Assembly (NCBI RefSeq): GCF_011045125.1
Contig: NZ_JAAKZF010000001.1
Location: forward strand, 62,001 to 126,000
Length of the DNA stretch: 64,000 nt
DNA from: Allomesorhizobium camelthorni
Lineage (GTDB): Bacteria > Pseudomonadota > Alphaproteobacteria > Rhizobiales > Rhizobiaceae
Direction of reading: 5' to 3'
The translations under genes and the position numbers were made by a program. Shown piece after piece: positions 54,983 to 56,280 of the stretch. The notes under the pieces were generated by a model. That model ran no database searches and had not been told where the DNA came from. It saw only the letters and a program-made list of their open reading frames with translations. The first letter of the stretch is position 1. Each line of letters starts with the position of its first letter.

Positions 54983-55519
54983 TCAGCCGCGGGCGAACGC
55001 CGTGTTCAAAAGCGTGATCTGGTCCGAGACCGGATTGGTGCGTCTTGCGGCCGGCGTCGCCGCGGCGTTGCCGGCGCGGCCATAGATCTCCTCGTCCATC
55101 CGGCGCACCAGCGCCTGAAGCCTCAGCGAACGGTTCACCAGATCGACGAAAGCTTCCGGCAGTTCGTTCCAGCCGGCCGCGTCGTCGTGAGCCGAAGCCG
55201 TGTCGAGCCGCACCTTGGATTTCTCCGAAGCCACCTGGTCGCGCGTCATCTCGCCGGAATTGGCGGCCCGCTGCAGGAGCAACCATGATGCAACCTGCAT
55301 CAGGCGGGTAGTGAGTCGCATGGATTCTGCGGCGTAGAGCGTGGCCGCCAGCCGCGACAGCTTCTTGGCTTCGGTGCGGCCGGGGCCGTCGAGATACTCG
55401 GCAGCCTGTTCGACCAGCCCCATCCCCTCATTGTAGAGGGGCTTGAAGGACTGGGAAAAGATCCGGCGTTCCGCCAGCCTGACCGTCTTTCCGCCGCCCT
55501 TCAAAGCCTCGATCATCAT
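54983..55519 (-). CDS. rcdA: RcdA-like protein (DUF1465), regulator of CtrA degradation
   Basis: A 178-residue helical protein of the DUF1465 family that includes Caulobacter RcdA, an adaptor helping ClpXP destroy the cell-cycle regulator CtrA. Family segments are AERRIFSQSFKPLYNEGMGLVEQAAEYLDGPGR and the TTRLMQVASWLLLQRAAN helix. The start is ATG 55519 (55516 is also ATG) after an AGGGG site. An exact CtrA box lies 123 bases upstream, implying feedback of CtrA on its own degradation pathway. Confidence 0.85.
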   Translation of the reverse strand: MMIEALKGGGKTVRLAERRIFSQSFKPLYNEGMGLVEQAAEYLDGPGRTEAKKLSRLAATLYAAESMRLTTRLMQVASWLLLQRAANSGEMTRDQVASEKSKVRLDTASAHDDAAGWNELPEAFVDLVNRSLRLQALVRRMDEEIYGRAGNAAATPAARRTNPVSDQITLLNTAFARG

Positions 55520-55641
55520 GTCGCCCCTGCACTCCTGAAACCGCCGCATGCCACATGTTGGCTGCCCGCCGGCGCGTTCCGAACCTATACGATACCGTTT
55601 CGGGAAAATGCGCCCGTGCATGATTGAAGGCAAGCACATGT

Positions 55642-55657
55642 TTAACAGAAGGTTAAC
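55642..55657. promoter_or_regulatory. CtrA box upstream of rcdA
   Basis: TTAA, seven bases (CAGAAGG), TTAAC: an exact match to the alphaproteobacterial CtrA consensus TTAA-N7-TTAAC. It lies upstream of rcdA and downstream of the small-RNA terminator at 55703. Confidence 0.8.
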
Positions 55658-55702
55658 GCGCCCAGGCGAGGCCGGGTTGTCCACAGAAGGACCGCTGCGG
55701 CC

Positions 55703-55731
55703 AAAAAAAAGAGCCGCTGAAAAGCGGCTCT
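55703..55731 (-). terminator. Strong terminator of the candidate small RNA
   Basis: Perfect 9-base stem AGAGCCGCT/AGCGGCTCT with a 4-base loop, followed on the minus strand by eight T. It could also serve the membrane-protein gene at 55861-56280, 130 bases upstream. Confidence 0.92.
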
Positions 55732-55829
55732 CAGGAGTTTAACAGGGAGGCGTCAAACGAAGTGGCTCCAAACCACTCGGTAAGAATCCAGATCACTGGA
55801 TGCGCTTAGTAAACGCCCGTAAAGCTTAA
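55703..55829 (-). ncRNA. Candidate small RNA with CtrA-type promoter
   Basis: No protein frame fits, but the minus strand shows all parts of a small-RNA gene. There is a TTGACG at 55864-55859, 17 bases, then GTTAAC; a hairpin ATCCAG/CTGGAT with a 4-base loop; a hairpin AGTGG/CCACT; an outer pairing GGCGT/ACGCC; an unpaired stretch with CCTCCC and CTCCT (anti-Shine-Dalgarno-like); and a terminator. The length is about 125 bases. It may belong to one of the rhizobial alpha-r or suhB-type RNA families; that needs a search. The 5' end is estimated. Confidence 0.65.
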
Positions 55830-55841
55830 CGATGGGTTAAC
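55826..55841. promoter_or_regulatory. CtrA box at the small-RNA promoter
   Basis: TTAA, seven bases (CGATGGG), TTAAC: an exact CtrA consensus. It overlaps the presumed -10 of the minus-strand small-RNA promoter, so CtrA would repress from that position, or activate if transcription starts further downstream. Confidence 0.78.
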
Positions 55842-55860
55842 GGCCGTGAAAAAATTGTCG

Positions 55861-56280
55861 TCAACCGGCCGTCGCGTCCCGTGTTGGCACAGCCGCCCGA
55901 TCGTCGGCCTTCCACAGCACCGGCAGCGCTATCCAGGCGAAAAGCAGTAGCGAGGCGAAGAAGCCGATCGAGCTGACGGCCACAACGGGCTCGATTCCCG
56001 GATTGCCGCCAAGCAGGAAGAACAGCCCGATAACGAGTCCGACGCCGCTCACCGCGGTCAGCCAGAAATGCGCAGGCGCCAGTCGCGAAGCGCGGGCCGC
56101 CGGAACCAGCTGATAGAAGAACGCGAACACCGCCGACATCAGCCAGCCCGCCACCATGATGTGGGCGTGGGTAGGCATCTGGGCATGGTCATGGCTGATC
56201 GACATGGCAAGGCCGAGTATCATTCCGGCGATGGCGTAGCCTATCGCCAGCGTGAAGAAGTTGCGTGCTATCCCGTGCAT
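55861..56280 (-). CDS. Small four-helix membrane protein, oxidase-subunit-I-like
   Basis: A 139-residue protein with four hydrophobic segments (about 8-27, 40-62, 72-90 and 98-122). The motif MPTHAHIMVAGWLMSAVFAFFYQLVPA resembles a helix pair of haem-copper oxidase subunit I (CcoN-like), including two histidines, but the protein is far too short to be an oxidase. Function unknown. It may bind haem or be an assembly factor. Confidence 0.7.
   Translation of the reverse strand: MHGIARNFFTLAIGYAIAGMILGLAMSISHDHAQMPTHAHIMVAGWLMSAVFAFFYQLVPAARASRLAPAHFWLTAVSGVGLVIGLFFLLGGNPGIEPVVAVSSIGFFASLLLFAWIALPVLWKADDRAAVPTRDATAG

Follow-up and report, generated by a model that had tools for sequence, protein, structure and literature searches.

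Upstream of a likely rcdA gene, the minus strand of an Allomesorhizobium camelthorni DNA stretch of 64,000 nucleotides (the window, meaning the whole stretch analysed) carries a short interval that looks gene-free, and a sequence-only reading placed there an unannotated small RNA (sRNA) gene wired to CtrA, the master cell-cycle regulator of alphaproteobacteria. Does this interval encode an RNA in its own right, what drives it and what might the RNA do? That the neighbour is rcdA, as proposed, is confirmed for the product of 54983-55519 (minus strand, likely start at 55519), which matches the NCBIfam equivalog NF051867 with 207.6 bits against 170, Pfam PF07323 and the RcdA structure in PDB 3ctw (E 7.7e-29).

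A scan of the window with the whole of Rfam at curated cut-offs returned two matches only, one tRNA and, on the minus strand from 55849 to 55704, the family RF02356 (BjrC1505), which aligned over model positions 1-140 with 71.3 bits against a cut-off of 50. The minus-strand stretch is a genuine sRNA gene of this known family, present as a single copy in the genome of A. camelthorni; the gene announced as unannotated is therefore real, although its family was already on record. The two other identities put forward for checking fared worse: suhB/MmgR (RF00519) is the second best model at the locus and was rejected because its 29.6 bits fall short of the cut-off of 41, and the Rfam listing for the locus, which extends to an E value of 10, contains no alpha-r family. 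The family reportedly originates from the work of Madhugiri in 2012 on Bradyrhizobium. The literature searched gave no function for BjrC1505, be it in connection with rcdA or otherwise; we met the name in one table only, and it is not used in the main text of a paper on Bradyrhizobium transcription start sites (PMC4842269).

For comparison we gathered 149 loci, namely the 118 listed matches to an exact 19-base core of the RNA (a search that retrieved at least 118 loci with named records), the 30 top RF02356 matches and the window itself. Six loci truncated at a contig end and one that lacks the core pattern (L026) were removed, which left 142 loci for alignment. The 80 titles listed for core matches belong mostly to Hyphomicrobiales, including Bradyrhizobium, Mesorhizobium, Phyllobacterium, Devosia, Stappia and Roseibium. 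Since the search itself fixes the 19-mer, its invariance in the loci so retrieved (L032-L149) is no evidence in itself.

The sRNA proper, as delimited by the RF02356 match, the point at which conservation restarts and the fold, has about 99 nt (55704-55802), and the window RNA from 55802 to 55704 folds with -38.5 kcal/mol (z -4.93), a stability reached by none of 200 shuffles. Where at least two stable hairpins had been predicted, we find four helices, each with compensatory changes, so that conservation of the stems extends beyond the terminator. Stem-loop 1 (AUCCAG-UGAU-CUGGAU, 55786-55801) shows them in all five modelled pairs, with 98.1% of cells paired; stem-loop 2 (GAGUGG...CCACUU, 55760-55778) in three of six, and stem-loop 3 (55737-55758) in two of five, both with 98.6% paired. 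The loop of the latter is an anti-Shine-Dalgarno element, CCUCCC, at 55750-55745, and a CTCCT motif lies in the linker, both as the sequence-only reading had noticed. The intrinsic terminator (55704-55732), a ten-pair stem followed by a T run, has compensatory changes in seven of eight modelled pairs; it was correctly recognised, but taken alone it is no rarer than expected from shuffled versions of the region, which contain a mean of 0.8. In all, changes on both sides occur in 17 of 24 pairs and 97.0% of cells are paired, values that none of 500 shuffles reached, in an alignment of 91 matches (89 of them distinct) drawn from 90 chosen sources that is model-based and leans towards the given structure. 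When RNAalifold was run on a MAFFT alignment, misaligned columns hid stem 1, and the structure was therefore set by hand and the pairs re-counted on the model-based alignment.

The three hairpins and the terminator that make up the 3' part of RF02356 are thus present, with the paired fraction just given in an alignment fitted to the model, whereas the paired 5' domain of the family is not: its 14 pairs hold as standard pairs in 42.3% of the cells of the 142 listed loci, against 97.3% for stem 1 in the same MAFFT alignment. For this reason we read the 5' domain (window positions 55849-55802, about 48 nt) as promoter DNA. The failure runs across the loci and is not confined to the window, which points to the boundaries of the model and not to non-membership. 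Hence the present gene resembles BjrC1505 in its match to the whole model above cut-off, in its hairpins and in its core, and differs in that the model's 5' domain is here read as promoter rather than RNA.

Within that domain lies a CtrA box, TTAACCCATCGTTAA (55826-55840, minus strand), spanning roughly -38 to -24 relative to the inferred start. It is one of only two exact TTAA-N7-TTAA sites in the 64 kb, where 0.01 are expected and where none of 100 shuffles contained two; the other, at 55642-55656, precedes rcdA. Both the exact site and the separate box of rcdA had been pointed out from the letters alone. The promoter thus carries the TTAA-N7-TTAA box typical of the CtrA regulon, and the part of PMC3616915 that deals with binding sites gives TAA-N7-TTAAC as the CtrA consensus of S. 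meliloti, and describes C. crescentus sites of other spacing as weakly bound. Across the listed loci the box keeps its place: 126 of 142 have TTWA-N7-TTWA in the 100 nt before the core, invariably at -85 to -75, as compared with about 0.05% of 7761 background windows from the same loci. A half-site spacing of 7 yields these 126 loci, and spacings of 3-6 and 8-12 yield 3-38. Between the sRNA and rcdA, the motif is found in only 31 of 135 listed loci (a count limited to loci with a fixed rcdA start and an sRNA-rcdA distance of 60-500 nt), from which it follows that the box conserved across loci is that of the sRNA.

The 142-locus alignment shows three conserved upstream blocks: the box with its 3' flank (55840-55821), a putative -10-like element with the consensus TATNAC (GTTTAC in the window, 55809-55814) and, past variable columns, stem 1 from 55801. 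Conservation resumes at 55801-55800 according to column scores, and a start seven bases past TATNAC falls on 55802, where stem 1 begins. We thus infer a promoter in the order CtrA box, TATNAC and start near 55802 (5' end at 55802-55800), which would give an RNA of about 99 nt; the earlier figure of about 125 bases misplaced the boundaries. The promoter first proposed, TTGACG-N17-GTTAAC, was discarded on column conservation, because the TTGACG columns (55863-55858) score only 0.02-0.38 bits and the supposed -10 coincides with the first half-site of the CtrA box. A sigma-70 scan of 55600-56000 found no site, which says little because its shuffles also average zero.

The position of the box over the -35 region is compatible with either sign of control, and CtrA could also block polymerase there, in which case the RNA would be made at low CtrA. 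The alignment of the 142 loci, however, contains no conserved separate -35 hexamer beside the box, a situation that fits dependence on an activator better; we thus consider repression by CtrA unlikely and CtrA activation of the predicted sRNA promoter quite likely.

Two other readings take the interval as part of something else. Inspection by eye shows in the window RNA a frame of about 21 codons that begins with GTG, so that the RNA could encode a small protein; among the 142 related RNAs listed, however, 113 have no start-to-stop frame of at least 15 codons and 107 have no ATG, and the stems change in a compensatory manner, so that we reject a coding RNA as barely conceivable. The sequence-only reading had itself offered as a fallback that the interval is a leader or terminator of the gene upstream (55861-56280, minus strand), a short protein with weak similarity to COX1 (Pfam, 26.1 bits, below the cut-off of 34.8). 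This gene lies on the same strand and the box starts about 20 nt past its end, as would suit its 3' end or terminator, but only 12 of 108 loci, one of them that of the window, have a relative of it upstream, and the promoter and the stems are conserved. We therefore also dismissed this origin, which is very improbable.

The RNA is common in the order. RF02356 was detected in 245 of 297 sampled genomes at E 1e-3, and above cut-off in 212, and in none of 14 control genomes; Caulobacter vibrioides was among the 14 controls of the search for rcdA locations, presumably the same control set. The gene is also tied to its neighbour, since rcdA lies on the same strand about 170-400 nt downstream of the core in 141 of the 149 listed loci, of which 122 were read directly and 19 were stored in reverse (18 assigned by core strand and L026 by match strand). 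Of the remainder, L076 has rcdA upstream and on the opposite strand, and seven show no rcdA in the sequence at hand, which ends within about 220 nt in L051, L072, L079 and L117 and after 1.1 kb in L075, and continues for more than 5 kb in L056 and L120. Likewise, rcdA stands beside 27 of the 30 best matches of the family sample, that of the window included; in the other three (L164, L167 and L168) it is elsewhere in the genome. Related loci are not independent in these counts. Conservation, synteny and covariation together give good support to the main idea of a CtrA-linked regulatory RNA gene beside rcdA.

This very synteny could also mean that the RNA is a terminated leader of rcdA, an attenuator whose transcripts would usually stop at the terminator and sometimes read into the gene. 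The constant strand and distance agree with it, and so do the several transcription start sites assigned to rcdA in agrobacteria in the relevant part of PMC10469942. However, the gene persists together with its CtrA box where no rcdA is beside the RNA, in L056/L167, L164 and L168 (in genomes G324, G419 and G410 rcdA lies elsewhere); the box stays with the RNA in all four of these unlinked loci inside the order, which amount to three cases because L056 and L167 are identical. Outside the order, six loci (L183-L185, L191, L193 and L196) show no rcdA in flanks of at most about 1.5 kb per side, and a CtrA-like box is still found upstream of the RNA. Of 11 loci parsed there, some of one genus, 7 have a CtrA-type box upstream; seven of the 23 loci listed for this comparison (L120, L180, L181, L186, L187, L197 and L198) do not enter the counts. 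The conserved terminator stem also speaks against a leader, as does the box that rcdA has for itself in the window and in 15 of 15 loci of the second form described below, though in only the 31 of 135 others mentioned above. A leader of rcdA is thus slightly less probable still than repression by CtrA, and we retain an sRNA gene with its own promoter.

The second form came to light in a diverged branch. A model of the RNA only (R1) matched 127 of 151 genomes of the family and 49 of 289 of the class, 18 of the latter 49 lying outside the order with at least 44 bits each. In 15 of the 127 family genomes the match was below 35 bits; because four genomes outside the class scored 29.3-33.2 bits, such weak matches were trusted only where their place upstream of rcdA was seen, as in six of the 15 (G023, G187, G299, G340, G386 and G409). 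Multiple R1 matches occur in G649 (three) and G442 (two). For 23 family genomes, selected because the match was absent or weak or because the link was broken, we located rcdA and read the region upstream of it. Sixteen (L199-L214) carry there a form with a different second hairpin and the core UCUCCCUGUUUUACC, which we call Rhizobium-type, this and Bradyrhizobium-type being our own labels. Two others (L218 and L219) have a form nearer to the window's RNA, L220 has hairpins without such a core, and no recognisable form was seen upstream of rcdA in L215-L217 and L221. RF02356 matched 17 of the 18 loci compared with it, at 27.6-47.3 bits, all below the cut-off of 50. Among second-form loci, the full first box precedes the RNA in 10 of 15 and the second box precedes rcdA in 15 of 15; leader counts for this type are without L202, which also carries the second form. 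These results suggest that the 5' end of RF02356 should be shortened and that the Rhizobium-type branch escapes its curated cut-off. Within the reach of the searches made, four things are new: the promoter with its CtrA box, the linkage to rcdA, the revised gene boundaries and the diverged branch.

Published data on rcdA can be set beside this arrangement. In the sections of PMC4433202 concerned with rcdA, ChIP-seq places CtrA in the rcdA promoter region of S. meliloti, CtrA depletion leaves rcdA expression unaffected, rcdA is essential and RcdA depletion raises CtrA; the corresponding part of PMC10469942 reports multiple rcdA start sites in three agrobacterial lineages and possible CtrA sites further upstream of rcdA than in Caulobacter. 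As far as these sections go, the ChIP and start-site data fit what an unannotated CtrA-driven sRNA upstream of rcdA would produce, although the second box, that of rcdA itself, may be the source of the ChIP peak, given the box counts in Rhizobium-type loci.

Taken as a whole, the locus is probably best explained by an anti-Shine-Dalgarno, trans-acting sRNA activated by CtrA; its family membership, structure, conserved box with a -10-like element and synteny are shown by computation. A single-copy gene would produce a BjrC1505-family sRNA of about 99 nt, with CtrA bound to the box at -35, where it would most likely activate transcription during the phase of the cell cycle in which its level is high. 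This RNA would fold into four hairpins, and its CCUCCC loop and flanks would pair with ribosome-binding sites and lower translation of the targets. Because the core is an anti-Shine-Dalgarno loop, repression at these sites is the likely mode, and from its sequence we judge base-pairing repression of mRNAs by this sRNA to be likely.

Comparable RNAs exist in related bacteria. CcnA of Caulobacter, in the description that PMC8959179 gives of it, is likewise a cell-cycle non-coding RNA, probably activated by CtrA and with a C-rich loop proposed to act on ribosome-binding sites; it differs in being encoded at the replication origin, in its CCCC loop and in its targets, ctrA and gcrA, and its authors state in the same account that a homolog was not clearly detected in S. 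meliloti. Place and loop as described set it apart from the present RNA, for which gcrA leaders are not enriched in pairing (see below). EcpR1 of S. meliloti also is an sRNA that is widespread in Rhizobiales and acts on the cell cycle (PMC4414408), but, as far as the pertinent sections of that paper and of PMC7143759 tell, it lies downstream of divK-pleD, has a GC-rich loop, UCCGCCGCAUCU, targets dnaA and gcrA and depends on ppGpp. Inspection of the window RNA did not find this conserved loop, and identity with EcpR1 was rejected on the different place and loop. Anti-Shine-Dalgarno motifs in unpaired regions or loops are further shared with suhB/MmgR, AbcR and NfeR1, repression at ribosome-binding sites being reported for the last two in the part of PMC7143759 devoted to them; suhB/MmgR differs by its score, as seen above, and AbcR and NfeR1 were compared by sequence through Rfam only.

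Which mRNAs might be repressed? Synteny gave rcdA in advance as the target to test, and its mRNA, whose product helps degrade CtrA, would be the most plausible single one. The rcdA ribosome-binding region, UUUCAGGAGUGCAGGGGCGAC (55520-55540, minus strand), is complementary to the sRNA core and linker, which is suggestive only. We compared core plus linker with the gene starts of 400 kb from each of three genomes, with duplex energies that ignore accessibility and a crude gene calling. The window duplex reaches -25.9 kcal/mol, fourth of 332 starts; starts pairing at least as well as rcdA number 4 of 332 (1.2%, rcdA included) in A. camelthorni, 4 of 329 (1.2%) in a Rhizobium-type and 49 of 325 (15%) in a Bradyrhizobium-type genome, and against controls allowed the best of three starts rcdA stands at 0.018, 0.024 and 0.234, respectively. 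A first test with automatic starts gave medians of -16.7 kcal/mol for 57 rcdA leaders and -14.3 for 706 controls; it had misplaced many rcdA starts, and was repeated with fixed ones. Over 106 named listed loci, the median percentile of rcdA was then 0.137, or 0.246 against best-of-three-start controls, and the fifteen Rhizobium-type leaders ranged from 0.012 to 0.787 with a median of 0.155.

Flanks shuffled around an unchanged CCUCCC paired equally well in 24.5% of shuffles for rcdA and in 58% for 300 control genes (medians). The two sRNA types favour rcdA leaders of their own type more than is seen for control genes: the values are -5.58 (136 leaders) and -1.60 kcal/mol (15 leaders) for rcdA, with -3.25, -3.18 and -2.87 for controls, and the gap between the types amounts to 4.0 kcal/mol for rcdA, versus 0.3-0.4 for control genes. 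Since 34% and 23% of control genes reach the value of the median rcdA, its lineage preference is not exceptional. Among 16 gene families, some of them possibly spurious frames, rcdA ranked third with automatic starts (mean percentile 0.332) and fourth on the best-of-three measure, and its fixed-start mean of 0.246 would rank second; another cluster of 17 held two rcdA. Two further candidates were discarded for lack of enrichment: gcrA (PF07750) scored 0.699, 0.505 and 0.782, and sciP (PF06627, which we take to be SciP) 0.723, 0.866 and 0.68, in the own, Rhizobium-type and Bradyrhizobium-type genomes. Of 20 gcrA and sciP leaders in 10 genomes, seven of which were scored against a borrowed background, 18 lay above 0.2, the exceptions being one sciP (0.196) and one gcrA with an odd start (0.045). 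Predicted pairing thus makes rcdA a plausible but tentative member of the target set.

The adjacency of rcdA and the likely CtrA site mean that the sRNA may feed back on the cell cycle. More speculatively, and with somewhat less confidence than for rcdA as a target, CtrA might drive, throughout the order, an sRNA that represses the translation of rcdA next to it, whose product is the adaptor promoting CtrA proteolysis. If true, the resulting double-negative loop would keep CtrA at a high level until the amount of RNA drops, and would account for the binding of CtrA at rcdA of S. meliloti without a change in its expression. With an sRNA present in the majority of genomes sampled from a large order, linked to rcdA and following a CtrA box at a constant distance, the CtrA circuit would gain a post-transcriptional connection, and the published puzzle of CtrA at S. 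meliloti rcdA without an expression change on CtrA depletion would become testable.
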